A stretch of 64,000 nt of DNA. Origin: Hypomesus transpacificus (taxonomy: Eukaryota > Chordata > Actinopteri > Osmeriformes > Osmeridae). Made by a program: the position numbers and the translations under genes. Shown here one piece after another: positions 5,151-44,267 of the stretch. Within the stretch, counting starts at the first letter, position 1. The number at the start of each line of letters is the position of its first letter. The notes under the pieces are model-generated. The model did no database searches. It was not told the DNA's origin and was given only the letters and a program-made list of their open reading frames with translations. The stretch lies in the NCBI RefSeq assembly GCF_021917145.1, contig NC_061077.1:12083121-12147120 (forward strand), in the 5' to 3' direction.

Positions 5151-7558
<2,408 letters not shown>

Positions 7559-7571
<13 letters not shown>

Positions 7572-8738: not shown

Positions 8739-9895
8739 ATTTTTCTCATATACGTTGATGGTCCTTTCCGAGATCCCGTGTCCACTGAGTTTGTTTACAA
8801 CTACAACACGGTAAGTTAAGGGTTAATTAATTAATAACCCGGAAGCCTGTCGTTTAAGGCATTCTGGTAACTGTAGTTAATTGCCAACCATCTTGGATCT
8901 GAATCCCTTCACAGTAAGTTTTTCCAGTGCCAATCTAACGGCATCTAACACCAAATAGGTAGTTGTATTTCTTTGTTATTACATACGTGTCTCTTTACTT
9001 TTATATCACAAAGATGGATTGAACATTTTTGGATTTAATGCATTACACACTTGATGGCCAAGTAGCCTAACGTAGCTAGCTAGCCTAACACGGTTCAATA
9101 CAAGCTGTAGTGCTGCACCACCACTGGTGCAAGCTACGTTCCAATAGCAATAATAATGGCAATGCTTCGAAAGCTAGGTAGCTTGCTAGCACGTTTATCG
9201 TTAGCTTGTCGGCTCAGTATGTTGCAATACCATATTTGCTAACCTTTGAAAAAGAGGCATACCTAGCCTATCTAGCTACCCCCACCTTCCTCAAAGTTTA
9301 TAATTTCCCGCTTGCTAGCACGAGTATAAACAACCCATGAGTAGCTAGCTAGCTATAGTAGTATGCAGTCCAGAAGGTAGACAAGTGTACTTTCAAGTTG
9401 AGGTAGGTGAGGATGTCACAACTAAGAAGTTAAGTTCCGGTCCTTATGCCAGCATGGGTAAATATAGTCAGGCCTACATGTTATGTAATGTAAATATGTC
9501 ATTTAGTACATCTGGCATTAGCCACAGGTCTAAGTGTGTAGCTAGCATGTAAAGAGCAATAAGCTAGAAAGTTAGTGCCAGTGGACTTTCTTTGTTCAGC
9601 ATACTATTAAATTAAAAAAGACTATTTAGCTTGACTCTACTTTCTGTTGTGCTTCACAACATCATCATACTGAACCTGGTTCAGTGCCTCTACAAATCAA
9701 TAAGGACACTAGACTCAGACTTTCTACCAAGAGCCCAAACATGATAGCTCTGTGCACTTAATCACTAGATCAGAGCTTTACAGCCTGTTATTCAAAAGAA
9801 GTTCCCAAACTGCTATAGCCATGTGTCTCCCTCCTACAGTTGGTTTAGAAATCGAAAACCATTGCGTTACTGAAGCTTTTCGTTTGTCCACAGCC

Positions 9896-15313
<5,418 letters not shown>

Positions 15314-15526
15314 ACACCAAAGAGCTTGGAGGAAGCATCAGAACGAACGAACGAACAACATTATTAGCCTAAATTATTTGAAGGAAATAAAGTGGTGCAT
15401 TACAGAAATGGTTTCTATTTACTGTGTATATTTAGGATTAACGCTAAAGGTAATAAATGTGTTTTCCTTGTTTATCTGTAACTCTTTTGTAAGGTTGTGC
15501 AAAAATGTACTGTGTGCTGCACACCT

Positions 15527-16050
15527 GTCTATACAGTCTAATCCATAGAAAACACCCGTCTATACAGTCTAATCCATAGAAAACACCCGTCTATACAGTC
15601 TAATCCATAGAAAACACCTGTCTAAACAATCTAATCAATAGAAAACACCTGTCTATTTCAGTCTAATCCATAGAAAACACCTGTCTATACAGTCTAATCC
15701 ATAGAAATCTCCCGTCTATACAGTCTAATCCATAGAAAACACCCGTCTATACAGTCTAATCCATAGAAAACACCTGTCTAAACAATCTAATCAATAGAAA
15801 ACACCTGTCTATTTCAGTCTAATCCATAGAAAACACCTGTCTATACAGTCTAATCCATAGAAATCTCCCGTCTATACAGTCTAATCCATAGAAATCTCCC
15901 GTCTATACAGTCTAATCCATAGAAATCTCCCGTCTATACAGTCTAATCCATAGAAAACACCCGTCTATACAGTCTAATCCATAGAAAACACCCGTCTATA
16001 CAGTCTAATCCATAGAAAACACCCGTCTACACAGTCTAATCCATAGAAAA
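15527..16050. repeat. 31-bp minisatellite downstream of naca, copy 1
   Basis: About 17 units of a roughly 31-bp repeat containing CCGTCTATACAGTCTAATCC. Variant units (CTGTCTAAACAATCTAATCA; ATCTCCCG) recur in the same order 156 bp apart (15618 and 15774), which makes a five-unit higher-order repeat. Confidence 0.92.
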
Positions 16051-16272
16051 AGGACCTGTTGGGACCACTGCTGGCACAATTGTCAAACATATCTGGCATT
16101 AGAATGTAGAGAATTGAGTGCTACACAACTTGTTTGCAAGTTGGAAAAAGCGGGAACAAAAATTGAGGTTACAATCGTCATATAATGTTTATTTATTTAA
16201 TCGAAATAGTAACTGATACCCACAAATCGATTGCCTACGAAAGTACGTGTTTCATAAAAAGGGTTCCATGCA

Positions 16273-16292
16273 TTCAATTCCCAGCAGCACCT
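16273..16292 (+). pseudogene. tRNA-Thr 3' fragment, copy 1
   Basis: TTCAATTCCCAGCAGCACCT matches the T-loop and 3' acceptor strand of the nearby tRNA-Thr-like sequence, without any 5' part. It is a relic of another copy. Confidence 0.6.
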
Positions 16293-16451
16293 AACTTTAT
16301 ATAAAAAAAATGTGTCCGGAACTTGTAAATGTTAACGTAAACTGTCAGTAAGGCTGAGAACTGAGGGCACGTTGGTCGTGTTTCCATGATGCTGTCCGAT
16401 CCATCACTCTGAGAGGCTTCAAGTAGTTGCATCCAATGTTCCAGATTCAGA

Positions 16452-16526
16452 GGTGCTGTGGCTTAGCCGCTTGAAAGCGCCTGTCTTGTAAACAGGAGAT
16501 CCTGGGTTCAGCTCCCAGCAGCACCT
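16452..16526 (+). tRNA. tRNA-Thr(UGU)-like, copy 1, possibly inactive
   Basis: Seventy-five bases fold into a full cloverleaf. Acceptor GGTGCTG/CAGCACC, D stem GCTT/AAGC, anticodon stem CCTGT/ACAGG with loop CTTGTAA (anticodon TGT) and T stem CTGGG/CCCAG all pair perfectly. Two normally invariant bases differ: the D-loop GG is GC (G19) and the T-loop is TTCAGCT (A58 is G). Both lie in the internal A and B boxes, so transcription may be weak. It is plus strand, between naca and adgrg7. Confidence 0.7.
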
Positions 16527-17696
16527 CTGTGTTTAATGCATACTGCAGAGGTTTCATATTGGCCAAACAACCTAAACTGAGTCCCCTGTGTTTGAAGGAA
16601 GATGGGAAACTGAAAAAGCCTATTGCAGTGCTTGCACTGTGTGCTCATTTCCGTCTTTGGATAAACTCTGTTAATCCAACATAATGGATGTTCTCATGTC
16701 GTTGTTATATGTTAATGTGTCAAATGTTGCATGTATAGCCTACAATGTCACCACTCCCTTAGTTATGAATATTCTATTCTTGCAACCGTTACCCACTAGA
16801 TGGCGCTATTACTTAAAGTAACGTGTGATCGAGCTTGACCACAAGTAATTTTACCGACACTGATAAGGCTGTAATACAATAACTAGTTCCTGGTTTAAGT
16901 TAAACATGAACTGGCAGTTCATGTTTTGGAGTTTTAGTTTTACCTCAAGAGTAGGTGTGCTACTTTAAACTTCAGGACTACTTCACCTCAGGACTGAAGG
17001 CCGATCGGAAGGTTGTTTTGAGATGAGGGACATGCGGTTTTCATTCATTTTCATCATAGGTAAGACTAACATGTTATAGCCTACTTCACACAGATTGAAC
17101 TAAAGTGCATGGCACTACCTTTGGTTTTGCGAAAGGCATGGGATTAGTAATGACATGAAAGGATTTTAAAATTTCTCAGAAATGCTTGAGAAATAGGCTA
17201 CAAGGTGTTGCGTGAGGGCATGAGAAATGGCTGAAATGCACTCATTTATTGGAGGGGGGGTTCTGGTCCATGAAATTGTTGACATGACAATGTCCATGAT
17301 GACATTGTTGACCACGTTTCTGATGGCTCATGATAATTTATCTTGCCTTCTTTTTACAGTGTTTTTTCAACACAGCGTCCCTGTCAGATTTCTGTCAATT
17401 GTAGGCCCACATAATGAAACCGCTGCGGACATTGTGGCTACTAACAATATGACTACTGATTATGTAACCACACCTGGTTTTCTAAATTCTACTAATCCTG
17501 CAAACACCACTGACAGTGTGACTACTGACTATACAACCACACCTAATCTTGTGATTTATGTACACCTAATTAATCCTACAGCTAAGGATATAACTACTAA
17601 CAAGACTACCAGTACTGATAATGTAACCACACATCATCCTACAAATACTTCACCAGATACAACCACACCGTTTGCTGACTTACCTCGAATTACCAC

Positions 17697-18540
17697 ACCC
17701 TCCATCCTTACCTCCATCCTTACCTCCATCCTTACCTCCATCCTTACCTCCATCCCCACTAGTAGGCCTACTTTCATTCCCAGCTCAGCCCAGATCAATG
17801 CTACATCCACGTCCAACACTGCCCCCACCAACAGCACTCTTTCCCCCACTGTCCTCACCAACAGCACTCATTCCATCAGCACTCTTTCCACCAGCACTCT
17901 TTCCCCCATTGACCCCATCAACAGCACTCTTTCCCCCACTGACCCCACCAACAGCACTCTTTCCCCCACTGACCCCATCAACAGCACTCTTTCCACCAGC
18001 ACTCTTTCCCCCATTGCCCCCACCAACAGCACTTTTTTCACCACTGCCACCACCAACAGCACTCTTTCCCCCACTGACCCCACCAACAGCACTCTTTCCC
18101 CCACTGACCCCACCAACAGCACTCTTTCCCCCACTGACCCCACCAACAGCACTCTTTCCACCATTGACCCCACCAACAGCACTCTTTCCCCCACTGACCC
18201 CACCAACAGCACTCTTTCCCCCACTGACCCCACCAACAGCACTCTTTCCACCATTGACCCCACCAACAGCACTTTTTTCACCACTGCCACCACCAACAGC
18301 ACTCTTTCCCCCATTGACCCCACCAACAGCACTCTTTCCACCATTGCCCCCACCAACAGCACTTTTTTCACCACTGCCACCACCAACAGCACTCTTTCCC
18401 CCACTGACCCCACCAACAGCACTCTTTCCCCCACTGCCCCCACCAACAGCACTCTTTCAAACAGCACTCTTTCCAATAGCACTCTTTCCCCCACTGCCCC
18501 CACCAACAGCACTCTTTCCACCAGCACTCTCTCCACCACT
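17697..18540 (+). repeat. adgrg7: coding minisatellites in the mucin exon, copy 1
   Basis: A 15-bp repeat (17697-17756, TCCATCCTTACC units) is followed by about 25 units of a 30-bp repeat encoding NSTLSPTDPT. Each unit carries an N-glycosylation sequon and several O-glycosylation candidates. The repeat reads open in other frames and on the other strand; those frames are shadows. Confidence 0.93.
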
Positions 18541-19230
18541 GCCATCCACACAACCCAGTCAACCCACCCTCCTCTGAGCTGTGCCAATGGAGGTTTGCTA
18601 CAGAATGGATTCTGTGTCTGTCCCGTTGAATGGACTGGAGGAACCTGCTCAATAGGTGGGTCTAAACGGCCACGACTGTCATGGCATCTTCGCCTGGCTC
18701 TGCTGTTCTAAACATGTTCTTCATTATCTTGTTATCAAAGGTATGTTCTGTTCTGAATTTGATATAAACTGATGTACCACATTTAAATCTCTCAGAAAAT
18801 TTCTGCATGGAAGAAACCATTCAAGGGTTTAATTTCCCAAGAACTACCATCGGTTGGTTCAGTTATTCTAAGCAGAAGTGTGGACCTAATACATCTAGTG
18901 GTAAGATAAAGGATGTGTTTGTTTTCCTGGTACAGCAGTGTCCCATTTTTGTCTACAGCTATTGCGGCCCTGAATGTGTTGACTCTCTTGGCACTGTGGC
19001 AGCTGATGGCTTCGGATGGGATACCATCACTGGAGATATTTTAAATTAACAACAATATTGTCTATATGACATTCTTGATAATAAATTCACTGTTTCCTGT
19101 TTTATCACCAACAGTGAATGTGCCCAGAGCTTCAGCAAGGTGTACTGGTCAATATGGGACTCAAAAGTTTGATACCCCAAATGTCTTACAGTGTGACTTA
19201 ACTTTCAGCAACATTCAAGAAAATGTAAGT

Positions 19231-21165
19231 ACAATAAAAAAATTAATGTATTCATTTAGCAGACGCTTTTATCCAAAGCGACTTCCAAGAGAGAGCTTTT
19301 ACAAAAGTGCATAGGTCACTTATCATAACACTGAGATATCCCCTACATTGCGGGTAGCCAAACATGAAGCATACATTGTGAAAAACCAAAAATAAGTGCC
19401 AAAAGGAAAAACCATAAGAGCATGTAGTTAAACAAGTTACAATTAAACAAGATGAACCTTAAAAAAAAAAGTGCAGGAGTGTACCTTGTAGAAAAGCAAG
19501 CAACAGTAAGCATATTTCACAGCGAGTACAGAGTTTTAAATCAGTTACAGCTAACCAACAAGAGCAACAAGTCTCTAAGTAAGAGTCATTGTGATCCTGG
19601 AGGAAACTAACATCAGGTCCAGCAAATCATTCCTAGGTGCCGTTGTATTCCCGGAACAAGTGTGTCTTGAGCCTTTTCTTGAAGGTGGAGAGACAGTCAG
19701 TGTCTCTGATGGAGGTAGGGAGTTGATTCCACCACTGGGGGGCCAGACAGGAGAAGAGCTTGTGTTGGGACCGGGCGGTCTTGAGCGGAGGGACCACTAG
19801 ACGGTTGTCAGAAGAAGACCCTAGGTGGCGGGTGGGGGTGTAGGGCAGGAGGAGAGACTTGATGTAGTCAGGTGCAGTCCTGTTCACCGCTCGGAAGGTC
19901 AGTACCAGGGTCTTGAATCTGATACGGGCCGTGATGGGTAGCCAGTGGAGAGAGATGAGGAGCGGGGTAACATGGGAGCATCTGGGTAGGTTGAAGACCA
20001 GGCGGGCCGCTGCGTTCTGTGATCCTCTGGAGAGGGCGGGTTGTGCATGCTGGGAGACCGGCGTGCAGTGAGTTGCAGTAGTCCAACTTGGAGAGGACAA
20101 GTGCTTGGACAAGCAGCTTTGTGGAGTGCTCAGACAGGTATCTCCTGATCTTCTGGATGTTGTAGAGGGTGAACCTACACGACCGGGAGACCGCACCAAT
20201 GTGGGCTGTGAGGGATAGCTCGTCATCCATGGTCACCCCAAGGTTCCTGGCAGAGGATGAGGGTGTCACCGTCGCGGATCCCAGGGTGATTGAGAGATCT
20301 TGGGAGATAGAGGGTTTGGCCGGGATGATGAGAAGTTCTGTTTTGGCGAGGTTCAGCTGGAGGTGGTGCTCATCCAGGCGGAAATGTTTGTGAGGCAGGC
20401 CTCAATCCTAGCTGAGATCCCCGGATCAGTCGGGGGGAACGACAGGTACAGCTGCGTGTCGTCAGCATAGCAGTGGTAGGAGAAGCCGTGGGAGGTGATG
20501 ATCGGTCCAAGTGAGGTGGTGTACAGGTGGAAGAGGAGGGGCCGAGGACGAAGCCCTGTGGGACACCAGTGTAGACCTGTTGGGGTCCTGACACTTTGCC
20601 TCCCCAGGAGACCTGGTAGGATCTTCCGGACAGGTAGGATGAGATCCACTGAAGTGCAGTGCCAGTGATGCCCATCTCAGAGAGTCTGGCGAGCAGAATC
20701 TGATGATTAACCGTATCAAATGCTGCAGAAAGGTCCAGCAGAATGATGACGGATGATCTTGATGACCTGGGCGGATCCATTTCTCTGTCAGCGCTAGTGC
20801 GTGAAGAGAAGCCTGGGATGCAAACGCCAGGATAAAGTCTGCTTTATGTAGAGCAGACTGGCAGTTCCAGAGCGCTATAGAAGGAGAGAGGGCAGGTGGA
20901 GAAGATCTGGATAGGTAGCTAAGATTGGAAGTGGACCGTATATACTTTGTGACATATCTACGGCTACGTCTACGAGTGTTGTAATGAACGGGAATGCTGA
21001 AGAAACACATGCTAGCTAAGAATATGTTCTAGATGAATTAGAATACAAATAGAATGATACTTACAATTAGGAGACAGTCATAATCAACACTCAGTAGGAC
21101 ACTATTCGCTCTGATCCGAATACAGATATCTGAGGCTATTTAAGCAGAAACCTACAACAACCCTA
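19231..21165 (-). mobile_element. L2/CR1-like LINE, internally deleted, copy 1
   Basis: Minus-strand non-LTR retrotransposon. Reading from its 5' side, an endonuclease start (LWNCQSALHKADFILAF ... LTEKWIRP, about 20770-20890) is followed directly by reverse transcriptase (LLDLSAAFDTVNHQILL; GVPQG; YADD) and the C-terminal region (LDYCNSLHAGLP; AARLVFNLP; WWNQLPTSIR). Most of the endonuclease is missing and the RT is frameshifted, so the element is dead. The 3' end carries the common fish tail TTTAGCAGACGCTTTTATCC. It interrupts an adgrg7 intron that is only 118 bp at the equivalent place in the second module (40277-40394). Boundaries are approximate. Confidence 0.87.
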
Positions 21166-23611
21166 ATTATGTAAATACAACGATTCTCAATAGAAACCCT
21201 CTTTTTAACCTAAAGGGACAATTTAAGTGCTTGTACAGTATATAACTACATGCATTATTTGTTTTGATCCCCTTAGCTATCCAGCGACACATCTGATTTG
21301 CTGCAGTTAGCGAGCAGTACTCAGATTCTGACGTCAAATGCAGAGACGTTAACAGCTGATAATGTTACCAAAGCGATTGACATCACCAACACCCTCCTTG
21401 AAAGGTCTTCAAATATCTCGGAGGTGCAGTGTTTTCAAACCTTAACACACCATTAATTCTAACAATGAGGCTATAGATATTGTTTTAGTTATATATGGTA
21501 ATTGTAACATATAGTGTATAACAGAAAAAAAGAAATATTCCACTATTATTAAGCTAACTGTGGTGATCTGGTACTATTGCAGGCAGTTGCCGTGGCAGCA
21601 TTGACCACTGTTAGTCAGCTGCTGGAGGCTTCTGTACCGGACAGTGTGGCAGAGACGTCTTTAAAGTCAGTTTTTAAATATTTTTTTTTTGAAGTCACAA
21701 TACAGTCTTAAAGTCTTGTGAGGTGATTTTGTCTCTCTACCTCTCTGAATGCCCCACAGGCTAACAAGAAGTTTAGAGAATATCTCACAGGGGTCAGACG
21801 ACACATCTCTAGTGGCCCAGCCCAACCTCGCTGTCCAGTCTGTCGTACTAACCAGTAATGACATAGTCGGCGTCCAGTTCTCTGCACAAACAGGTTGATG
21901 GGAGAAAGCATCGTTCATCCACGTTTGCAGATACATTTGCTGTGAACACTTTTTAGACTTTTTTTAATTAAATGATTAACACAACAATTTCCCCCTTCTC
22001 CAGGATTATTTGGTAATTTTGCTGCTGATAGAATTAGACTAAATGCCAACGCTTCTGAACTTGTGTCTGACGATGGAGAGGCCACTGATGTGCAGATATT
22101 CATTAGATTATCACCAGGTGAGTTGACAGTGGACCTAACACCATACAGTAGATTTACTATCCACCCCTTTTGAGTTTCCTTGTGCTTATCACACACATCC
22201 TATGAGACCTAGTAAACAAAATCTACGTCAATACATAATCAAGAAGATAGAAATACAACTCTAATTTCTCCCTCCTTTTCTTTTGCTCTACGAACTGTGC
22301 CTCGTCCCCTCAGGAGTGCGGCGTCGAAGTTCTGGCATCTCTGTTGGATTTGTGCTCTACCAGAACACCTGGTTCTTCAGGTCAAGGGAGTTCAGAGCCC
22401 ACTTGGACAGTCGTACCAGGATCATCTTGGGAAATGTGAAAGGAGCTGGAAGGATGGGTGTTGACCATGTTGAAATGGTCTTCAGACCAGTCGTAAGATC
22501 CCCTGCTGACCCCTGTTTTAGATTAGCTGTGCTTGATACAGCAGAGTCATGCCACTGTTTCATAATTCATGGAGGTTGGATGAAATGGCACTGCTGTGTA
22601 AATACAAAACTTACCACAAATTACAATGGGATAAGTTACCCGTTAACTCCTCTTAACAGTGGAACAAGAAAGTCCAAGTATACCAGCTGTACAACAGCAT
22701 TCATCCATTTCACCCACACATCTAAATGTCTATCTGTGTTTGGTTCTCCGGCTACGGTGATGACAAAGCGACTTGTTTGTTTTCTCAGAATGTCCCCAAC
22801 ACAACCTTCTATGACTTTGCATGCGTGTCTTGGAACTACACCAAAGGTGAATGGAGCACGGATGGGTGCTACAAATTCAACGTTTCCCCTGAGGCCCTGC
22901 ATTGTTTTTGCAATCATACCACAAACTTTTCTGCTCTAATGGCAAGTGTCCTTTCTCAACTCTGTCAAGTTGAATACTGCATCATTTCGAAATCATTTTT
23001 TCTATTTGGACCCATGAAAGTCTCAATTCTGTTTCAATAAACTAAATTATGAAATCTATCAAACTTACTCACTAGCCTTTTTTGCCACTTCTGTCTGATT
23101 TAATAGGGATATCTCTTTCATGTCACATCTTCCAAACTTCCTAATGTGACTAAATTCTTGATAATCTCTAAGACATAACATGTTATTATGCTGCAATGTT
23201 ATATTATTGTGTATTATGAGCACATTATGTACTCCTTAAAAAAAAATTGCTGGTGTGCCTATAGCCTACTCTGAATGAAAATAAAGTTGTCCCAATAATT
23301 TGACTGAAGGATGCAGTGTGAGACCTGTCTGATAAATATGATACAGTTGAAAGGTTAAATAACGTTGATTGTTTGAATATTTAGCGAGTCTCTTGGGCGC
23401 GAATGTATAAGTTGCAATGGTCGCAAAACGTGTCTAAACCTGCATTGCATGGACGCATCAGCTGTTCTAAAATGCAGACTGTAAACAAAGGAAACTGCGC
23501 CTCAATTCCTCGATCAAACACGTTTCACTGTAAAAAAAGAAAAAAGAAAGGTCTATTGACAGTCATATGAAACAAAGAAACGTATTTGCATAAACTCATT
23601 AATTAGCCTAC

Positions 23612-24303
23612 CTTGTGATCCCATAAATTCCCTTAATCGATCAATTATCGTCCTGTTGAAGAGAAAAAATAATTTAAAAAAAAGGAAGTATGATCCTAGG
23701 ACAGTTCCGCAGATAGGATTCTCATAAGGCTACCAGCCAGCATATCAGATTATTATAGCTCCATAGAAGTGCGGAATTTCCATTTTCGAATAACGGTATG
23801 CGGAGTGGAATGGGTCTCACCTATTGCCGTTGCTCGCTGGGTGAGGTTATGTAGAAAGCTAGCCAGCTAGATTAGAGGATGAAACACAACGACGAGTATC
23901 TTCCATCGAATTATATCTTACTCACAGGCAGGCAGTAGTGCATGTATTAATGAGAAGGCGGATGTAATCAAGATTTATATGATATATATTTGTTGCAGAC
24001 CTCCATTTCGATTTTGTTTTCATTTTAGCAGTGCCGAATCCATTGAATCCTTGCTGCTGCGCCTAGCCTACTTTTCACTTGCTCGCGAGTAGTGACGAGT
24101 TTTCCCACGTACTTCGACACACAGAAAACACACCCGTCCCGTACACTCTTATCTTCCTCGTGCAACAGTAGCTAAATGTGTATTATTAATGGCTGTTGTA
24201 TAGCCTACTTAGCTAAGAGACTAATGCTGTACTTGCCTGCACTTTAATGTCACGTCTCCCTGCCTCTTCCTTTGAGTCCATGTCCAACAGCTGATAACTG
24301 AGA
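23612..24303 (-). pseudogene. dtx3: orphan dtx3 5' exons and promoter, copy 2
   Basis: An exact copy of the dtx3 promoter region and its first coding exon (23652-23612, MGSQ with donor GTAGGC). The next dtx3 exons are not in the duplicated block, so this promoter, if active, would transcribe leftwards through the joint at 22966 and antisense to adgrg7 copy 1. Confidence 0.85.
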
Positions 24304-24755
24304 CAAATGTAAGCAGGAAGTTCGTCACTAGAACTGAACTGTGGGTCTGAATCACATTGTTGAATAATGAAAAAATGAACAAATAAAAATCACATTGTTG
24401 AGCAATTTAAAAACTCAAGCACCCACGAATGTTTTTGCTCTTGAAATGTTAGTGTTAGTAGATTGTTAGTCTGACTGACAGGCAGGACAACCCCATAAAT
24501 GCTTGCAAATCAGGTACGTTTTTTGATTCAGCATATTACAATTTACAATGTGTGCTGTGTTATATATTGGCGTACGACATCAATCCTTCACTGTATGGTA
24601 TTTTCCGTCAAATGCCTTCACGTTCTGCCGCTCATATCATAGTCACTGGATAAAATTAACATTTTGGTGATTGAAAACATCAAGGCATGCAGTCTTTCTT
24701 AAACTAAAGCTAGCAGCATGTGAACGTAGGCAACTTCGGCTCCGACAGAGAACAA

Positions 24756-24791
24756 ATATATAAAGGTTCTCATATGAGAACCCTTATATAT
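24756..24791. promoter_or_regulatory. naca: 36-bp palindrome with TATA at naca promoter, copy 2
   Basis: Identical to 8703-8738. The candidate TOP-type start is at 24816 and the exon 1 donor GTAAGT is at 24864. Confidence 0.58.
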
Positions 24792-25948
24792 ATTTTTCTC
24801 ATATACGTTGATGGTCCTTTCCGAGATCCCGTGTCCACTGAGTTTGTTTACAACTACAACACGGTAAGTTAAGGGTTAATTAATTAATAACCCGGAAGCC
24901 TGTCGTTTAAGGCATTCTGGTAACTGTAGTTAATTGCCAACCATCTTGGATCTGAATCCCTTCACAGTAAGTTTTTCCAGTGCCAATCTAACGGCATCTA
25001 ACACCAAATAGGTAGTTGTATTTCTTTGTTATTACATACGTGTCTCTTTACTTTTATATCACAAAGATGGATTGAACATTTTTGGATTTAATGCATTACA
25101 CACTTGATGGCCAAGTAGCCTAACGTAGCTAGCTAGCCTAACACGGTTCAATACAAGCTGTAGTGCTGCACCACCACTGGTGCAAGCTACGTTCCAATAG
25201 CAATAATAATGGCAATGCTTCGAAAGCTAGGTAGCTTGCTAGCACGTTTATCGTTAGCTTGTCGGCTCAGTATGTTGCAATACCATATTTGCTAACCTTT
25301 GAAAAAGAGGCATACCTAGCCTATCTAGCTACCCCCACCTTCCTCAAAGTTTATAATTTCCCGCTTGCTAGCACGAGTATAAACAACCCATGAGTAGCTA
25401 GCTAGCTATAGTAGTATGCAGTCCAGAAGGTAGACAAGTGTACTTTCAAGTTGAGGTAGGTGAGGATGTCACAACTAAGAAGTTAAGTTCCGGTCCTTAT
25501 GCCAGCATGGGTAAATATAGTCAGGCCTACATGTTATGTAATGTAAATATGTCATTTAGTACATCTGGCATTAGCCACAGGTCTAAGTGTGTAGCTAGCA
25601 TGTAAAGAGCAATAAGCTAGAAAGTTAGTGCCAGTGGACTTTCTTTGTTCAGCATACTATTAAATTAAAAAAGACTATTTAGCTTGACTCTACTTTCTGT
25701 TGTGCTTCACAACATCATCATACTGAACCTGGTTCAGTGCCTCTACAAATCAATAAGGACACTAGACTCAGACTTTCTACCAAGAGCCCAAACATGATAG
25801 CTCTGTGCACTTAATCACTAGATCAGAGCTTTACAGCCTGTTATTCAAAAGAAGTTCCCAAACTGCTATAGCCATGTGTCTCCCTCCTACAGTTGGTTTA
25901 GAAATCGAAAACCATTGCGTTACTGAAGCTTTTCGTTTGTCCACAGCC

Positions 25949-31378
<5,430 letters not shown>

Positions 31379-31591
31379 ACACCAAAGAGCTTGGAGGAAG
31401 CATCAGAACGAACGAACGAACAACATTATTAGCCTAAATTATTTGAAGGAAATAAAGTGGTGCATTACAGAAATGGTTTCTATTTACTGTGTATATTTAG
31501 GATTAACGCTAAAGGTAATAAATGTGTTTTCCTTGTTTATCTGTAACTCTTTTGTAAGGTTGTGCAAAAATGTACTGTGTGCTGCACACCT

Positions 31592-32115
31592 GTCTATACA
31601 GTCTAATCCATAGAAAACACCCGTCTATACAGTCTAATCCATAGAAAACACCCGTCTATACAGTCTAATCCATAGAAAACACCTGTCTAAACAATCTAAT
31701 CAATAGAAAACACCTGTCTATTTCAGTCTAATCCATAGAAAACACCTGTCTATACAGTCTAATCCATAGAAATCTCCCGTCTATACAGTCTAATCCATAG
31801 AAAACACCCGTCTATACAGTCTAATCCATAGAAAACACCTGTCTAAACAATCTAATCAATAGAAAACACCTGTCTATTTCAGTCTAATCCATAGAAAACA
31901 CCTGTCTATACAGTCTAATCCATAGAAATCTCCCGTCTATACAGTCTAATCCATAGAAATCTCCCGTCTATACAGTCTAATCCATAGAAATCTCCCGTCT
32001 ATACAGTCTAATCCATAGAAAACACCCGTCTATACAGTCTAATCCATAGAAAACACCCGTCTATACAGTCTAATCCATAGAAAACACCCGTCTACACAGT
32101 CTAATCCATAGAAAA
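31592..32115. repeat. 31-bp minisatellite, copy 2
   Basis: Same array as 15527-16050. No unit gain or loss is seen, which is notable for a minisatellite and argues for a very recent or artefactual duplication. Confidence 0.9.
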
Positions 32116-32516
32116 AGGACCTGTTGGGACCACTGCTGGCACAATTGTCAAACATATCTGGCATTAGAATGTAGAGAATTGAGTGCTACACAACTTGTTT
32201 GCAAGTTGGAAAAAGCGGGAACAAAAATTGAGGTTACAATCGTCATATAATGTTTATTTATTTAATCGAAATAGTAACTGATACCCACAAATCGATTGCC
32301 TACGAAAGTACGTGTTTCATAAAAAGGGTTCCATGCATTCAATTCCCAGCAGCACCTAACTTTATATAAAAAAAATGTGTCCGGAACTTGTAAATGTTAA
32401 CGTAAACTGTCAGTAAGGCTGAGAACTGAGGGCACGTTGGTGGTGTTTCCATGATGCTGTCCGATCCATCACTCTGAGAGGCTTCAAGTAGTTGCATCCA
32501 ATGTTCCAGATTCAGA

Positions 32517-32591
32517 GGTGCTGTGGCTTAGCCGCTTGAAAGCGCCTGTCTTGTAAACAGGAGATCCTGGGTTCAGCTCCCAGCAGCACCT
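32517..32591 (+). tRNA. tRNA-Thr(UGU)-like, copy 2
   Basis: Identical to 16452-16526, with the same G19 and A58 changes. One of the three substitutions between the copies (32442) lies about 75 bp upstream. Confidence 0.68.
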
Positions 32592-33087
32592 CTGTGTTTA
32601 ATGCATACTGCAGAGGTTTCATATTGGCCAAACAACCTAAACTGAGTCCCCTGTGTTTGAAGGAAGATGGGAAACTGAAAAAGCCTATTGCAGTGCTTGC
32701 ACTGTGTGCTCATTTCCGTCTTTGGATAAACTCTGTTAATCCAACATAATGGATGTTCTCATGTCGTTGTTATATGTTAATGTGTCAAATGTTGCATGTA
32801 TAGCCTACAATGTCACCACTCCCTTAGTTATGAATATTCTATTCTTGCAACCGTTACCCACTAGATGGCGCTATTACTTAAAGTAACGTGTGATCGAGCT
32901 TGACCACAAGTAATTTTACCGACACTGATAAGGCTGTAATACAATAACTAGTTCCTGGTTTAAGTTAAACATGAACTGGCAGTTCATGTTTTGGAGTTTT
33001 AGTTTTACCTCAAGAGTAGGTGTGCTACTTTAAACTTCAGGACTACTTCACCTCAGGACTGAAGGCCGATCGGAAGGTTGTTTTGAG

Positions 33088-36000
33088 ATGAGGGACATGC
33101 GGTTTTCATTCATTTTCATCATAGGTAAGACTAACATGTTATAGCCTACTTCACACAGATTGAACTAAAGTGCATGGCACTACCTTTGGTTTTGCGAAAG
33201 GCATGGGATTAGTAATGACATGAAAGGATTTTAAAATTTCTCAGAAATGCTTGAGAAATAGGCTACAAGGTGTTGCGTGAGGGCATGAGAAATGGCTGAA
33301 ATGCACTCATTTATTGGAGGGGGGGTTCTGGTCCATGAAATTGTTGACATGACAATGTCCATGATGACATTGTTGACCACGTTTCTGATGGCTCATGATA
33401 ATTTATCTTGCCTTCTTTTTACAGTGTTTTTTCAACACAGCGTCCCTGTCAGATTTCTGTCAATTGTAGGCCCACATAATGAAACCGCTGCGGACATTGT
33501 GGCTACTAACAATATGACTACTGATTATGTAACCACACCTGGTTTTCTAAATTCTACTAATCCTGCAAACACCACTGACAGTGTGACTACTGACTATACA
33601 ACCACACCTAATCTTGTGATTTATGTACACCTAATTAATCCTACAGCTAAGGATATAACTACTAACAAGACTACCAGTACTGATAATGTAACCACACATC
33701 ATCCTACAAATACTTCACCAGATACAACCACACCGTTTGCTGACTTACCTCGAATTACCACACCCTCCATCCTTACCTCCATCCTTACCTCCATCCTTAC
33801 CTCCATCCTTACCTCCATCCCCACTAGTAGGCCTACTTTCATTCCCAGCTCAGCCCAGATCAATGCTACATCCACGTCCAACACTGCCCCCACCAACAGC
33901 ACTCTTTCCCCCACTGTCCTCACCAACAGCACTCATTCCATCAGCACTCTTTCCACCAGCACTCTTTCCCCCATTGACCCCATCAACAGCACTCTTTCCC
34001 CCACTGACCCCACCAACAGCACTCTTTCCCCCACTGACCCCATCAACAGCACTCTTTCCACCAGCACTCTTTCCCCCATTGCCCCCACCAACAGCACTTT
34101 TTTCACCACTGCCACCACCAACAGCACTCTTTCCCCCACTGACCCCACCAACAGCACTCTTTCCCCCACTGACCCCACCAACAGCACTCTTTCCCCCACT
34201 GACCCCACCAACAGCACTCTTTCCACCATTGACCCCACCAACAGCACTCTTTCCCCCACTGACCCCACCAACAGCACTCTTTCCCCCACTGACCCCACCA
34301 ACAGCACTCTTTCCACCATTGACCCCACCAACAGCACTTTTTTCACCACTGCCACCACCAACAGCACTCTTTCCCCCATTGACCCCACCAACAGCACTCT
34401 TTCCACCATTGCCCCCACCAACAGCACTTTTTTCACCACTGCCACCACCAACAGCACTCTTTCCCCCACTGACCCCACCAACAGCACTCTTTCCCCCACT
34501 GCCCCCACCAACAGCACTCTTTCAAACAGCACTCTTTCCAATAGCACTCTTTCCCCCACTGCCCCCACCAACAGCACTCTTTCCACCAGCACTCTCTCCA
34601 CCACTGCCATCCACACAACCCAGTCAACCCACCCTCCTCTGAGCTGTGCCAATGGAGGTTTGCTACAGAATGGATTCTGTGTCTGTCCCGTTGAATGGAC
34701 TGGAGGAACCTGCTCAATAGGTGGGTCTAAACGGCCACGACTGTCATGGCATCTTCGCCTGGCTCTGCTGTTCTAAACATGTTCTTCATTATCTTGTTAT
34801 CAAAGGTATGTTCTGTTCTGAATTTGATATAAACTGATGTACCACATTTAAATCTCTCAGAAAATTTCTGCATGGAAGAAACCATTCAAGGGTTTAATTT
34901 CCCAAGAACTACCATCGGTTGGTTCAGTTATTCTAAGCAGAAGTGTGGACCTAATACATCTAGTGGTAAGATAAAGGATGTGTTTGTTTTCCTGGTACAG
35001 CAGTGTCCCATTTTTGTCTACAGCTATTGCGGCCCTGAATGTGTTGACTCTCTTGGCACTGTGGCAGCTGATGGCTTCGGATGGGATACCATCACTGGAG
35101 ATATTTTAAATTAACAACAATATTGTCTATATGACATTCTTGATAATAAATTCACTGTTTCCTGTTTTATCACCAACAGTGAATGTGCCCAGAGCTTCAG
35201 CAAGGTGTACTGGTCAATATGGGACTCAAAAGTTTGATACCCCAAATGTCTTACAGTGTGACTTAACTTTCAGCAACATTCAAGAAAATGTAAGTACAAT
35301 AAAAAAATTAATGTATTCATTTAGCAGACGCTTTTATCCAAAGCGACTTCCAAGAGAGAGCTTTTACAAAAGTGCATAGGTCACTTATCATAACACTGAG
35401 ATATCCCCTACATTGCGGGTAGCCAAACATGAAGCATACATTGTGAAAAACCAAAAATAAGTGCCAAAGGGAAAAACCATAAGAGCATGTAGTTAAACAA
35501 GTTACAATTAAACAAGATGAACCTTAAAAAAAAAAGTGCAGGAGTGTACCTTGTAGAAAAGCAAGCAACAGTAAGCATATTTCACAGCGAGTACAGAGTT
35601 TTAAATCAGTTACAGCTAACCAACAAGAGCAACAAGTCTCTAAGTAAGAGTCATTGTGATCCTGGAGGAAACTAACATCAGGTCCAGCAAATCATTCCTA
35701 GGTGCCGTTGTATTCCCGGAACAAGTGTGTCTTGAGCCTTTTCTTGAAGGTGGAGAGACAGTCAGTGTCTCTGATGGAGGTAGGGAGTTGATTCCACCAC
35801 TGGGGGGCCAGACAGGAGAAGAGCTTGTGTTGGGACCGGGCGGTCTTGAGCGGAGGGACCACTAGACGGTTGTCAGAAGAAGACCCTAGGTGGCGGGTGG
35901 GGGTGTAGGGCAGGAGGAGAGACTTGATGTAGTCAGGTGCAGTCCTGTTCACCGCTCGGAAGGTCAGTACCAGGGTCTTGAATCTGATACGGGCCGTGAT

Positions 36001-39000
36001 GGGTAGCCAGTGGAGAGAGATGAGGAGCGGGGTAACATGGGAGCATCTGGGTAGGTTGAAGACCAGGCGGGCCGCTGCGTTCTGTGATCCTCTGGAGAGG
36101 GCGGGTTGTGCATGCTGGGAGACCGGCGTGCAGTGAGTTGCAGTAGTCCAACTTGGAGAGGACAAGTGCTTGGACAAGCAGCTTTGTGGAGTGCTCAGAC
36201 AGGTATCTCCTGATCTTCTGGATGTTGTAGAGGGTGAACCTACACGACCGGGAGACCGCACCAATGTGGGCTGTGAGGGATAGCTCGTCATCCATGGTCA
36301 CCCCAAGGTTCCTGGCAGAGGATGAGGGTGTCACCGTCGCGGATCCCAGGGTGATTGAGAGATCTTGGGAGATAGAGGGTTTGGCCGGGATGATGAGAAG
36401 TTCTGTTTTGGCGAGGTTCAGCTGGAGGTGGTGCTCATCCAGGCGGAAATGTTTGTGAGGCAGGCCTCAATCCTAGCTGAGATCCCCGGATCAGTCGGGG
36501 GGAACGACAGGTACAGCTGCGTGTCGTCAGCATAGCAGTGGTAGGAGAAGCCGTGGGAGGTGATGATCGGTCCAAGTGAGGTGGTGTACAGGTGGAAGAG
36601 GAGGGGCCGAGGACGAAGCCCTGTGGGACACCAGTGTAGACCTGTTGGGGTCCTGACACTTTGCCTCCCCAGGAGACCTGGTAGGATCTTCCGGACAGGT
36701 AGGATGAGATCCACTGAAGTGCAGTGCCAGTGATGCCCATCTCAGAGAGTCTGGCGAGCAGAATCTGATGATTAACCGTATCAAATGCTGCAGAAAGGTC
36801 CAGCAGAATGATGACGGATGATCTTGATGACCTGGGCGGATCCATTTCTCTGTCAGCGCTAGTGCGTGAAGAGAAGCCTGGGATGCAAACGCCAGGATAA
36901 AGTCTGCTTTATGTAGAGCAGACTGGCAGTTCCAGAGCGCTATAGAAGGAGAGAGGGCAGGTGGAGAAGATCTGGATAGGTAGCTAAGATTGGAAGTGGA
37001 CCGTATATACTTTGTGACATATCTACGGCTACGTCTACGAGTGTTGTAATGAACGGGAATGCTGAAGAAACACATGCTAGCTAAGAATATGTTCTAGATG
37101 AATTAGAATACAAATAGAATGATACTTACAATTAGGAGACAGTCATAATCAACACTCAGTAGGACACTATTCGCTCTGATCCGAATACAGATATCTGAGG
37201 CTATTTAAGCAGAAACCTACAACAACCCTAATTATGTAAATACAACGATTCTCAATAGAAACCCTCTTTTTAACCTAAAGGGACAATTTAAGTGCTTGTA
37301 CAGTATATAACTACATGCATTATTTGTTTTGATCCCCTTAGCTATCCAGCGACACATCTGATTTGCTGCAGTTAGCGAGCAGTACTCAGATTCTGACGTC
37401 AAATGCAGAGACGTTAACAGCTGATAATGTTACCAAAGCGATTGACATCACCAACACCCTCCTTGAAAGGTCTTCAAATATCTCGGAGGTGCAGTGTTTT
37501 CAAACCTTAACACACCATTAATTCTAACAATGAGGCTATAGATATTGTTTTAGTTATATATGGTAATTGTAACATATAGTGTATAACAGAAAAAAAGAAA
37601 TATTCCACTATTATTAAGCTAACTGTGGTGATCTGGTACTATTGCAGGCAGTTGCCGTGGCAGCATTGACCACTGTTAGTCAGCTGCTGGAGGCTTCTGT
37701 ACCGGACAGTGTGGCAGAGACGTCTTTAAAGTCAGTTTTTAAATATTTTTTTTTTGAAGTCACAATACAGTCTTAAAGTCTTGTGAGGTGATTTTGTCTC
37801 TCTACCTCTCTGAATGCCCCACAGGCTAACAAGAAGTTTAGAGAATATCTCACAGGGGTCAGACGACACATCTCTAGTGGCCCAGCCCAACCTCGCTGTC
37901 CAGTCTGTCGTACTAACCAGTAATGACATAGTCGGCGTCCAGTTCTCTGCACAAACAGGTTGATGGGAGAAAGCATCGTTCATCCACGTTTGCAGATACA
38001 TTTGCTGTGAACACTTTTTAGACTTTTTTTAATTAAATGATTAACACAACAATTTCCCCCTTCTCCAGGATTATTTGGTAATTTTGCTGCTGATAGAATT
38101 AGACTAAATGCCAACGCTTCTGAACTTGTGTCTGACGATGGAGAGGCCACTGATGTGCAGATATTCATTAGATTATCACCAGGTGAGTTGACAGTGGACC
38201 TAACACCATACAGTAGATTTACTATCCACCCCTTTTGAGTTTCCTTGTGCTTATCACACACATCCTATGAGACCTAGTAAACAAAATCTACGTCAATACA
38301 TAATCAAGAAGATAGAAATACAACTCTAATTTCTCCCTCCTTTTCTTTTGCTCTACGAACTGTGCCTCGTCCCCTCAGGAGTGCGGCGTCGAAGTTCTGG
38401 CATCTCTGTTGGATTTGTGCTCTACCAGAACACCTGGTTCTTCAGGTCAAGGGAGTTCAGAGCCCACTTGGACAGTCGTACCAGGATCATCTTGGGAAAT
38501 GTGAAAGGAGCTGGAAGGATGGGTGTTGACCATGTTGAAATGGTCTTCAGACCAGTCGTAAGATCCCCTGCTGACCCCTGTTTTAGATTAGCTGTGCTTG
38601 ATACAGCAGAGTCATGCCACTGTTTCATAATTCATGGAGGTTGGATGAAATGGCACTGCTGTGTAAATACAAAACTTACCACAAATTACAATGGGATAAG
38701 TTACCCGTTAACTCCTCTTAACAGTGGAACAAGAAAGTCCAAGTATACCAGCTGTACAACAGCATTCATCCATTTCACCCACACATCTAAATGTCTATCT
38801 GTGTTTGGTTCTCCGGCTACGGTGATGACAAAGCGACTTGTTTGTTTTCTCAGAATGTCCCCAACACAACCTTCTATGACTTTGCATGCGTGTCTTGGAA
38901 CTACACCAAAGGTGAATGGAGCACGGATGGGTGCTACAAATTCAACGTTTCCCCTGAGGCCCTGCATTGTTTTTGCAATCATACCACAAACTTTTCTGCT

Positions 39001-42000
39001 CTAATGGCAAGTGTCCTTTCTCAACTCTGTCTTTACTGCCCTCAGCTGTAAAACTTCGGTTTACCACATGCTTGGGGTGCAACGATACACTCAGCTCACG
39101 ATTCAATACATATCACGATACTGGGTGTACAATACAATACGTGTCACAATATTTTTTACAACGTTTTAAAATAAACTGAAATTCATTTAACAGATTTATT
39201 TCCCAAACATTAAACATTTTCAATAATGGTCTTTGTTGTACATACAATTTAGTTAACTCCCTTCAAGCGATTTCTGTGAATGCAATGAATGCACGCATGA
39301 CGCAGGTGTAGAGTAGGTCGTGTGCTGGTAGCTCAACCAATCGGATCAAACGGACATCGTATTGTAAAAATATTGCCTTAACTCAATGATACATATTGTA
39401 AAAATATTGTAAATTGTTCCACGATATATTGTTACACCCCTACCACATACAAATATAACATCCCTATTATCTTTAAAGTACTTTGAAATGTCAGTTGTTT
39501 CGTTTTTTCTCCTCCTCTAGTTTTTCACGGTCCCTACCTCCATCCCCACAAGTACTAACATTCCCAGCCCCTCCATCAGTGCTATATCCACGTTCACCAC
39601 TGTCACCCACACAGCCCACCCTCCTCTGAGCTGTGCCAATGGAGGTTTGCTACAGAATGGATTCTGTGTCTGTCCCGTTGAATGGACTGGAGGAAACTGC
39701 TCAATAGGTGGGTCTAAACGGCCACGACTGTCATGGCATCTTCGCCTGGCTCTGCTGTTCTAAACATGTTCTTCATTATCTTGTTATCAAAGGTATGTTC
39801 TGTTCTGAATTTGATATAAACTGATGTACCACATTTAAATCTCTCAGAAAATTTCTGCATGGAAGAAACCATTCAAGGGTTTAATTTCCCAAGAACTACC
39901 ATCGGTTGGTTCAGTTATTCTAAGCAGAAGTGTGGACCTAATACATCTAGTGGTAAGATAAAGGATGTGTTTGTTTTCCTGGTACAGCAGTGTCCCATTT
40001 TTGTCTACAGCTATTGCGGCCCTGAATGTGTTGACTCTCTTGGCACTGTGGCAGCTGATGGCTTGGGATGGGATACCATCACTGGAGATATTTTAAATTA
40101 ACAACAATATTGTCTATATGACATTCTTGATAATAAATTCACTGTTTCCTGTTTTATCACCAACAGTGAATGTCCCCAGAGCTTCAGCAAGGTGTACCGG
40201 TCAATATGGGACTCCAAAGTTTGATACCCCAAATGTCTTACAGTGTGACATAACTTTCAGCAACATTCAAGGAAATGTAAGTACAATTTAATTACAACAA
40301 TTCCTAATAGAAACCCTCTTTTTGAACCTAATGGGACAATCTACGTGCTTGTACAGTATTAAATGACATCCATTATTTGTTTTGATCTCCTTAGCTATCC
40401 AGCAACACATCTGATTTGCTGCAGTTAGCGAGCAGTACTCAGATTCTGACGTCAAATCCAGAGACTTTAACAGCTGATAATGTTACCAAGGCGATTGACA
40501 TCACCAACACCCTCCTTGAAAGGTCTTCAAATATCTCGGAGGTGCAGTGTTTTCAAACCTCAACACACCGTTAATTCTAACAATGAGGTTACAGATATTG
40601 TTTTAGTTATATATGGTAATTGTAACATATAGTGTATAACAGAAAAAGAGACATACTGTGTGAAAAAAAGAAATATTCCACTATTATTAAGCTAACTGTG
40701 GTGATCTGGTACTATTGCAGGCAGTTGCCGTGGCAGCATTGACCATTGTTAGTCAACTGCTGGAGGCTTCTGTACCGGACAGTGTGGCAGAGACGTCTTT
40801 AAAGTCAGTTTTTGAAGTAAATATTATTATTTTTAAGTCACAATACAGTTTTTAAAGTCAAAATACAGTTTTTAAAGTCTTGTGAGGTGATTTTGTCTCT
40901 CTACCTCTCTGATTGCCCCACAGGCTAACAAGAAGTTTAGAGAATATCTCACAGGGGTCAGACGACACATCTCTAGTGGTCCAGCCCAACCTCGCGGTCC
41001 AGTCTGTCGTACTAACCAGTAATGACATAGTCGGCGTCCAGTTCTCTGCACAAACAGGTTGATGGGAGAAAGCATCGTTCATCCACGTTTGCAGATACAT
41101 TTGCAGTGACCACTTTTTAGATTCTTATTAAATGATCAGCACAATAATTTCCCCTTTCTCCAGGATTATATGGTAGTTTTGCTGCTGATAGAATTAGACT
41201 AAATGCCAACGCGTCTAAACTTGTGTCTGACGATGGAGAGGCCACTGATGTGCAGATATTCATTAGATTATCACCAGGTGAGTTGACAGTGAACCTAACA
41301 CCATACAGTAGATTTACGATCCACCCCTTTTGAGTTTCCTTGTGCTTATCACACACATCCTATGAGACCTAGTAAACAAAATCTACATCAATACATAATC
41401 AAGAAGATAGAAATACAACTCTAATTTCTCCCTCCTTTTTTTTCCCTCTACAAACTGTGCCTCGTCCCCTCAGGAGTGCTGCGTCGAAGTTCTGGCATCT
41501 CTGTTGGATTTGTGCTCTACCAGAACGACAGGTTCTTCAGGTCAAGGGATTTCAGAGCCCACTTGGGCAGTCATAGGAGTGTCATCTCGGGAAATGTGAA
41601 AGGAGCTGGAAGGATGGGTGTTGACCATGTGGAAATGGTCTTCAGACCAGTTGTAAGATCCCCTGCTGACCCCTGTTTTAGATTAGCTGTGCTTGATACA
41701 GCAGAGTCATGCCACTTGTTCATAATTCATGGAGACTGGATGAAACGGCACTGCTGTGTAAATACAAAACTTTCCACAAATTACAACGGAATAAGTTACC
41801 CATTAACTCCTCTTAACAGTGGAACAAGGACGTTCCAGTACACCAACTGTACAACAGCATTCATCCATTTCACCCACAAATCTAAATGTCTATCTGTGTT
41901 TGGTTCTCCGGCTACGGTGATGACAAAGCGACTTGTTTGTTTTATCAGAATGTCCCCAACACAACCTTCTATGACTTTGCATGCGTGTTCTGGAACTACA

Positions 42001-44267
42001 CCCAAAATGAATGGAGCACGGATGGGTGCTACAAAGTCAACGTTTCCCCTGAGGCCCTGCATTGTTTTTGCAATCATACCACAAACTTTGCTGTGCTAAT
42101 GGCAAGTGTCCTCTCTCACCTCTGTCTTTACTGCCCTCAGCTGGGAACTTCAGTTTTTCCACATAAAAATCAAACACCCCTATTACCTCTAGTCCTACAG
42201 GGTTGATTATGTCTACGCTGAAGCCCTGGACTGGATCACCTATCTGGGGTGTTCCATGTCTGTTGTGGGCTTGGTTATCGCAATCATTTTTCACGTCATG
42301 ACCAGGTGAGATGTTTGCTGTACCGTGACCTGGCAACCCTCACGAAAGCAACCTACGTAGAGACCGCAAATTGGTACGTAAACCTTTTTTAATTGGTCCG
42401 TTCTTCAGGAAATCCAGTAACAGCAGCCCAGCACTCCTGATGGTGAGCCTCTGTGTCAGCCTCCTCATCTTCACCCTCCTCTTCCTGCTGGGGATCAACA
42501 ACACCGACCCACAGTCCCATGAACCTGAAGACAGGGACGCCAACGTCATGCTTTCCTCTGACACGCACGTCGACCCAGACCACGGACCCTGCACTGCCAT
42601 GGCGGCCTTGCTGCAGTACTTCCTGACGGCCACCTTTGTCTGGAACTCTCTCTATGCCTCTCACATGTTCCTACTGCTCTGGAACCCCCTGAGGAGACCC
42701 CCATCCTACCTTCCGACTGTCACCGTGGTCACTGGATGGGGTATGTAGGTAGCAGCATAAAGTAACAAAGTAGAAAGTAATATTTGTCAATGTAGCAATG
42801 CAGGGTTGCTGCAGCTACTTGTGCATCAACACTGTCTTCTCTCTCCCAGGAGTTCCTGCTGTTCTCGTTTCCATCACGTTGGGAGTCACCTACAGCGTGG
42901 ACGATCCATTAAACTACCGACAGGAAGAATTGTAAATCAAAACTTCGTTTTTGGTTGTTTCATTATTACTTAATACACTAAACTACCAATATGTAATACA
43001 CAATCTGTTATAGCTTTTACTGTCCTTTTTAATTCTAACTTTAGACTACACTACCAGGACAAAGAAAGCATACTCTGGAAGCAAACCAGTGGCTGCATTT
43101 TTGGGGTTCAAATTGTGAGGAACCTGAATTTCCGAACTTTGAATTTTTGGATATGATTTTTCTTTTACATTGAAATAAATGGATATTGCAATCTGAAGAG
43201 CTGAATTCAAAACCAATGTCACTGATTTGCTTCCATAGCATAGCCTAGTATATCTTATACTACAGTACAAAACACATAGAGGTAGATTTTTACCACAGTA
43301 CATTACATCAACCACAAACTAACTACTTCCTTTTGACCCTCCAGTTGCTGGCTTGCTGCTGTAAACCGAGAGGGGCAGTTTGACTTTGCAAAGCCAATGT
43401 TCTGGGGGTTCCTCATCCCGGTAGCTCTAATGCTGATCTTTAACACAGCTATCCAATGCTATTTTAGCTACACAACATGCAGAACAAACCCAAATTTAAC
43501 CAGGTACCAATGATGTAGTTAACTGCAATCATACGTAAACAAATCCTAATAGTCAAAGGGCTTGTTAAAACGTTTTATTGCACTTCTACGTTGTGAGTGC
43601 TCTACCATCTGCTTTAAGCTTTTTTTATTTTCTCCACAGCACCAGACGGTCCTCTAACAAGAAACATTTTCTGAGTAGTTTCTCATTGGCAGTGGTGTTG
43701 GGTCTCTCCTGGATAATAGGATACCTGATGCTCATCATACCAAACAAGAACGTGCACTTCATCCTGAACATCGTCTTCTGCCTGTGTACCACAACACAGG
43801 TAGTTACCTGTGTTGTGTTACCTGGGTTCTCACTGAGTCAGACCGGCAGTACATTGGGGACAAGTGATGAAAACACAATTCACAGGATGCCTATGTACAG
43901 TATGCACACGCTTGTTAGCGCCTGTTTCGGCCCCCACAGACAATTGTGAGATAAGTGACAAGGGAAACTCACTAACCATGTTGTGGCAACTCCCTAATAA
44001 TCCTGTCCGAACAAACAATAGAACATTTACAGCTCATAAAATGAAGACCCATAAATAACATAGACCTTTAAATAATTCAGAACCATTTGCCATCTCTATT
44101 TTTGTCTTTCACAGGGACTGCAGATCTTCATACTGTTCGTAGCAAGAAAGTCCATCTTCAGGCAAAAGATGTTGGATCTTCCAATCGGCCGCCATGTCAA
44201 AAGTTTCACTCTATGGAAACACAAAGATAGAAATACCACTGATTCATACATAGAACTGGATACATAA
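33088..44267 (+). CDS. adgrg7: adgrg7-like adhesion GPCR with two GAIN-GPS modules
   Basis: Module 1 exons: 33088-33124, 33425-34720, 34861-34965, 35180-35289, 37342-37488, 37648-37730, 37825-37958, 38069-38182, 38379-38557, 38854-39006. Module 2: 39521-39707, 39848-39952, 40167-40276, 40395-40541, 40721-40803, 40924-41057, 41164-41277, 41474-41652, 41949-42101. 7TM: 42193-42305, 42409-42740, 42850-42931, 43345-43503, 43640-43799, 44115-44267. The exons total 1523 codons (786+404+333) with no break. Human ADGRG7 (GPR128) likeness: CNHTTNFAVLM at the GPS, CWLA in extracellular loop 2, QGLQIFIL in TM7. Family role: surface receptor cleaved at the GPS, with the stalk acting as tethered agonist; mammalian ADGRG7 is intestinal. 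That modules 1 and 2 form one transcript is inferred from phase, from the absence of a first exon for module 2 and from the absence of 7TM for module 1. Two separate genes is the alternative. Confidence 0.8.
33762..34605 (+). repeat. adgrg7: coding minisatellites in the mucin exon, copy 2
   Basis: Same 15-bp and 30-bp coding arrays as copy 1, with no unit difference seen. The equivalent exon of module 2 (39521-39707) has lost almost all of the repeat and keeps only the EGF module and about 35 Ser/Thr/Pro-rich residues. Confidence 0.92.
35296..37230 (-). mobile_element. L2/CR1-like LINE, internally deleted, copy 2
   Basis: Duplicate of 19231-21165 with one substitution (35469). Absent from the equivalent intron of module 2. 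Confidence 0.86.
39070..39440. mobile_element. non-autonomous hAT-like element
   Basis: A 371-bp element flanked by a perfect 8-bp direct repeat TACCACAT (39062-39069 and 39441-39448), the target-site length of hAT transposons. Near-terminal inverted repeats are GGGGTGCAACGATA (left) and the complement of ATATATTGTTACACCCC (right). There is no coding capacity. It fills most of the intron between adgrg7 modules 1 and 2. Confidence 0.8.

Follow-up and report, generated by a model that had tools for sequence, protein, structure and literature searches.

One GAIN-GPS module per receptor is usual for ADGRG7/GPR128, with no curated rule to that effect, and the usual core of GPS cleavage is H-L-T/S. 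Adhesion G protein-coupled receptors (GPCRs) are thought to signal once the N-terminal fragment is pulled by force from a single GAIN domain. In this study, we analyzed a stretch of 64,000 nucleotides from Hypomesus transpacificus (the window; contig C18, 12083121-12147120), in which an adgrg7 (GPR128) reading frame contains two such modules ahead of one seven-transmembrane (7TM) domain. ADGRG7/GPR128 is named ADGRE1 in a revised scheme (PMC8584163). Force is believed to expose the tethered agonist from the GAIN domain of adhesion GPCRs (PMC11039983). GPR128 has an N-terminal signal peptide in most ray-finned fishes, with an extra helix at this end in sharks and basal ray-finned fishes (PMC11039983). 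Human adhesion GPCR genes often yield soluble N termini via alternative splicing and intron retention (PMC11039983).

The window gene possesses the domain order of ADGRG7/GPR128 (GPR128_N, GAIN subdomains A and B, GPS and 7tm_2). However, it differs in the doubled ectodomain module before the one 7TM domain and in a long mucin exon built of 30-bp repeats. Its hydrophobic start may correspond to the signal peptide that GPR128 is reported to have in most ray-finned fishes (PMC11039983). The two zebrafish genes, gpr128a and gpr128b, form a teleost pair like the window gene and a paralogue on contig C12 described below, whereas a doubled GPS is unmentioned in the excerpt on the zebrafish genes (PMC4335454). 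The human N-terminus isoforms likewise provide several ectodomains per gene, but they arise by alternative splicing and promoters and not by genomic duplication of a module as in the window gene (PMC11039983). No description of a receptor with a double or tandem GAIN/GPS was met among the literature matches listed, which is weak evidence. The wording "two GPS" in one published match refers to two mutants.

Two modules in one open reading frame

The first-pass annotation, which was made from the sequence alone, claimed that 25 exons join into one frame spanning both modules. We rebuilt this model, and the claim was borne out. The exons, all on the forward strand between 33088 and 44267, sum to 4569 nt and 1523 codons with one terminal stop, and neither an internal stop nor a phase break was found. 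All acceptors end in AG, and all donors are GT except for the GC donors after exons 10 and 19. As had been described, phase 0 is found both at the end of exon 10 and at the start of exon 11, whereas exon 2 starts in phase 1. A 26-exon model with an additional 70-bp exon at 43045-43114 was rejected because this exon breaks the frame. Exons 1-10 form module 1, exons 11-19 form module 2 and exons 20-25 form the 7TM part.

Three GPR128-specific Pfam models scored above their cut-offs in each module. GPR128_N (PF22257) gave 88.4 bits (E 3.4e-25) in module 1 and 87.4 bits (E 7e-25) in module 2 (cut-off 27.2), GAIN subdomain A (PF22259) gave 57.4 and 55.1 bits (cut-off 22), and GAIN subdomain B (PF22261) gave 70.1 bits (E 2.4e-19) and 78 bits (E 8e-22; cut-off 21.7). 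Therefore, the gene is ADGRG7/GPR128, as proposed. GPS (PF01825) was matched in both modules (E 6.7e-11 and 2.7e-13), while the secretin-type 7TM domain 7tm_2 (PF00002) was matched only once, after module 2 (107.3 bits, E 9.9e-31). When the module-2/7TM part was used as the query, the closest solved relatives by sequence were other adhesion GPCRs, with ADGRG6 first. At the GPS, both modules read CFCNHTT, followed by NFSALM in module 1 and NFAVLM in module 2; H-T-T is thus kept at the expected cleavage place in both. The protein starts with a short hydrophobic stretch, as read from the sequence without a predictor.

These results show that two GPR128_N-GAIN-GPS modules stand ahead of a single 7TM domain in one open frame. 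The gene departs from the single-module norm in this point while all the family-specific domains are found. From this structure we favor, with moderate confidence, one adgrg7 transcription unit in which the mucin-EGF-GPR128_N-GAIN-GPS module is doubled ahead of the 7TM domain. Such a receptor would illustrate how ectodomain modules can be gained by duplication.

Related copies were sought by a whole-genome GPR128_N search (437 Mb, 376 contigs), which works exon by exon and detects exon 3 only, so that its counts are lower bounds. At least four matches were obtained: module 2, the two copies of module 1 in a 16-kb tandem repeat (copies A and B, described below) and C12:430269-430373. Since the C12 paralogue has a single match, it looks single-module. 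Exons 1-7 of this paralogue, and as much of exon 8 as is visible (C12:428769-431873), are open, and the phases of exons 1-7 are common to both genes, which are about 15% diverged over the aligned exons and introns.

The mucin head encoded by exon 2 (residues 25-418) consists of 58% Ser/Thr/Pro and contains 31 N-glycosylation sequons. Its 30-bp tandem array at 33882-34588, which codes for NSTLSPTDPT-like units, is expanded compared with module 2 and the C12 paralogue. Exon 2 is 1296 bp in the window gene, whereas that of the paralogue is compact (282 bp) and lacks a long array. Because the compact mucin of module 2 resembles that of the paralogue, the longer form in module 1 is probably the derived one.

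The intron between the modules and the origin of the duplication

Up to the acceptor of the 7TM exon, the introns that follow modules 1 and 2 are homologous: position 39475 corresponds to 42191, the penultimate base of the intron preceding the 7TM exon. The CTCTAG at the end of the latter intron reads CTTTAAAG in the inter-module copy. Thus, the module was duplicated ahead of one 7TM domain. On the 3' side, exon 11 is homologous to the interior of exon 2 from 39531 (equivalent to 33806). The 55 bp in between (39476-39530), which extend 10 bp into exon 11 and contain its acceptor, form the junction, and no clear homologue of this segment was found within the window.

A hAT element had been reported in the 514-bp gap, and the end type and target-site duplication agree with this. 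The insert is flanked by CCACATGC and CCACATAC; by eye, 7 of the 8 bases of the target-site duplication and 13 of the 17 bases of the ends match, while the repeat finder gave inner inverted pairs only and not the ends. We take the element to be hAT-like from its end type and duplication length. The insert is present only in the module-1 copy of the intron; the matching module-2 intron is an empty site.

The absence of a start exon and of a 7TM exon from the gap also held. No start exon was seen by eye in the three forward frames of the 514 bp. As for a signal-peptide exon of module 2, none was seen by eye in 39007-39520, a result obtained without a promoter scan, a predictor or a search of the module-1 introns. 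By tblastn of the window (E<=1e-3), 7TM coding sequence was placed at 42193-44266 only; the query was out of frame past residue 1390, so that the search covers transmembrane helices 1 to about 4, and rows of the mucin repeat were omitted. A separate gene for module 2 is not favored, because no signal-peptide exon was seen in the gap and a stop stands directly 5' of exon 11.

The first-pass annotation attributed the doubling to an intragenic duplication. The duplication itself is supported by the similarity of the modules, which are about 4% apart, and by their shared 3' intron. However, "intragenic" is only one of two routes: two tandem genes that fused, the first losing its 7TM domain, would explain the structure equally well.

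Divergence between the modules

In the following comparison, the mucin parts of exons 2 and 11 were omitted due to their very unequal lengths, and the insertion in intron 4 was cut out. The exons differ at 44 of 1128 sites and the introns at 55 of 1322 sites, which are similar rates. The 5' 683 bp, which extend from the EGF part as far as the beginning of intron 4 (34618-35300 versus 39605-40287), are 98.5% identical, with exon 3 and intron 2 identical between the modules, whereas the 3' part is about 92% identical when gaps are counted. Since this contrast is beyond chance (p ~2e-5 if sites are independent), it suggests that the 5' part was later gene-converted.

No indel was found in the 1128 exon bp compared, against about 4-6 in the 1322 intron bp (chance 0.01-0.03 for 4 or 5 events). 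Thus, the reading frame has probably been kept, and this lack of exon indels is the only hint of constraint on the modules. The 17 homologous splice sites (8 acceptors and 9 donors) are intact in both modules. With the C12 paralogue as the outgroup, 25 differences were assigned to module 1 and 22 to module 2, with 5 ambiguous; therefore, neither module is ahead over the 1586 columns compared, which reach into exon 8.

The 16-kb tandem repeat

The doubled gene described by the first-pass annotation stands, but an adjoining 16-kb repeat with an extra module-1 copy lacking a 7TM domain had been overlooked. Copies A and B lie head-to-tail and differ by 3 substitutions (about 0.02%) and one 12-bp difference in a CA tract. 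Each contains a tRNA-Thr gene, and the NACA-like NAC-domain gene was matched by Pfam in copy A. The coding parts of module 1 are identical in both copies over 2358 nt. Because the boundary of the unit lies 25 bp inside the intron that follows the GPS exon, copy A lacks its own 7TM domain; reading through from its exon 10 adds 32 residues before a stop.

This repeat is either very young or an assembly duplicate, and we lean slightly to the latter because the divergence of the copies is so low. The two-module gene stands whether the repeat is true or false. If copy A is real, its product could be a secreted ectodomain, or its transcript could be spliced on to copy B. That the two modules are themselves the 16-kb repeat was rejected, since the divergences are about 4% and about 0.02%, respectively, and module 2 lies outside the unit. 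A RING-finger open reading frame (5889-6857, minus strand) was observed just upstream of the repeated unit.

Alternatives to the double-module receptor

Several observations weigh against the double-module reading. The GC donor of exon 10 scores only 3.7, and that of exon 19 has the same score (splice-site scores were obtained with an approximate matrix). The ratio of nonsynonymous to synonymous divergence (dN/dS) between the modules is 0.84 (32.5 nonsynonymous and 11.5 synonymous differences), which is not below a neutral simulation: 51% of the stop-free runs were at 0.84 or lower. Of 500 neutral runs with the same number of changes, 79% gained a stop, so that the lack of a stop here has odds of about 1 in 5 under neutrality. 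The module divergence looks neutral in this comparison; a kept function for both modules is therefore not demonstrated, and one module may have lost constraint. Exons 9-10 and 18-19, which encode GAIN-B and GPS (38379-39006 versus 41474-42101), differ by 21 changes in altered codons and 2 in synonymous codons, a pattern that could reflect relaxed or positive selection. Finally, the near-identical 16-kb repeat shows that the locus is unstable or hard to assemble.

Splicing offers the strongest of the alternatives. The loss of compatibility with a signal-peptide exon, which had been claimed for module 2, is true for exon 11 but not for the module overall, since exon 1 fits exons 12, 13, 17 and 18 in phase. 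Exon 10 can be joined in frame to exon 11, 14, 15, 19 or 20, and homologous exons share phases, so that exon 9 to 19 or 20, exon 4 to 14 and similar joins are also in frame. Thus, single-module isoforms are in frame, and the double-module mRNA is a plausible product among several. The modules might then be used mostly singly, by joining exon 10 to 20 or by splicing from an exon of module 1 to the following homologous exon of module 2, giving a single-module receptor with either head. The identical phases and the modest donor of exon 10 agree with this arrangement. However, the acceptor of exon 11 (9.6) outscores that of exon 20 (5.7), so that site strength alone does not favor skipping; between 100 and 63900, 38 sites on the forward strand score at least as high as the exon-11 acceptor, including this acceptor and other true sites. 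We consider mostly single use unlikely. If single-module splice forms alone exist, the locus is a gene with two alternative heads.

Less probable again is a decaying or split locus, in which the promoter feeds module 1 only, yielding a secreted mucin-EGF-GAIN protein, and module 2 with the 7TM part is a promoterless remnant. Copy A already represents a module 1 without a 7TM domain and with a stop soon after exon 10, the module divergence is near neutral, and soluble N termini are frequent products of human adhesion GPCR genes (PMC11039983). In contrast, the exons of module 2 and of the 7TM part are open and have intact borders, the portion aligned to module 1 is free of indels, and a good acceptor precedes exon 11 in the correct phase.

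A wrong joining of two paralogous or allelic copies by the assembly is very improbable: the adjoining head-to-tail block with almost no divergence and a blunt junction is a pattern of false duplications too and the window has a 500-N gap at 58501, but the modules are about 4% diverged and have indels and insertions of their own. In addition, their 3' introns are homologous as far as the acceptor of the 7TM exon, no gap lies between the modules, and the two-module gene remains intact after the 16-kb repeat is collapsed.

The proposed receptor

In the favored double-module gene, the region 5' of exon 1 would drive one pre-mRNA, and splicing of exon 10 to exon 11 would give a receptor of 1522 residues. 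Self-cleavage may occur in both GAIN domains, because H-T-T is kept at the expected place in both GPS motifs. Double cleavage would leave three non-covalently held chains, namely a mucin-rich outer fragment, a middle fragment and a 7TM fragment. The middle fragment would begin with the module-1 tethered-agonist peptide TNFSALM, which is not joined to the 7TM domain, and the 7TM fragment with the module-2 agonist TNFAVLM, the only one so joined. TNFAVLM follows the usual tethered-agonist pattern. Module 1 would serve as a longer and strongly glycosylated outer extension that adds a second breakaway joint, its mucin head projecting the outer fragment. In-frame skipping of exons 11-19 could yield ordinary single-module receptors from the same gene.

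We tentatively propose that two self-cleaving GAIN domains in series might form a three-chain tension sensor with two joints, in which the outer agonist is not joined to its own 7TM domain and may dock in trans; we regard this as doubtful. A receptor with two GAIN-GPS joints in series would raise the questions of whether the inner joint is shielded, delayed or tuned by the outer one, and whether cleavage still takes place in a GAIN domain distant from the membrane.

Features of the window

The coordinates of the gene, its insertions and the 16-kb units are collected in Table 1.

Table 1. Positions of the exons, insertions and repeated units, numbered from the first letter of the window
Feature	Position	Strand	Description
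Exon 1	33088..33124	+	Start codon; hydrophobic, signal-peptide-like N terminus; ends in phase 1
Exon 2	33425..34720	+	Long mucin-like Ser/Thr/Pro/Asn tract with 30-bp repeat array, then EGF-like start of GPR128_N
Exons 3-10	34861..39006	+	Remainder of module 1: GPR128_N, GAIN subdomains A and B, GPS (CFCNHTTNFSALM)
Insertion in intron 4 of module 1	35300..37233		About 1.9 kb; absent from module 2; edges approximate
Inter-module intron	39007..39520	+	514 bp; GC donor; both sides of the insert homologous to the pre-7TM intron, up to 39475
hAT-like insert	39072..39442		Imperfect terminal inverted repeats; 8-bp target-site duplication
Exon 11	39521..39707	+	Compact mucin tract, then EGF-like start of module 2; begins in phase 0
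Exons 12-19	39848..42101	+	Remainder of module 2: GPR128_N, GAIN subdomains A and B, GPS (CFCNHTTNFAVLM)
Exons 20-25	42193..44267	+	Single 7TM domain (7tm_2), tail, stop codon
16-kb unit, copy A	6914..22966	+	NACA-like NAC-domain gene, tRNA-Thr, module 1 (exons 17023-22941), no 7TM
16-kb unit, copy B	22967..39031	+	End lies 25 bp inside the intron that follows the module-1 GPS exon; blunt junction

The insertion in intron 4 contains long open stretches on the minus strand, as viewed in copy A, and two open stretches from it, tested at their copy-A places, gave no match in Pfam. Downstream of the receptor, a third tRNA-Thr (TGT) at 47911-47985 and a weaker tRNA match at 47773-47837 were detected. 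An open stretch at 48751-49146 matches the RNase H domain of reverse transcriptase and represents a piece of a retroelement. The assembly gap of 500 N lies at 58501-59000, and an 11-bp tandem repeat of 29 copies was observed at 53342-53661.

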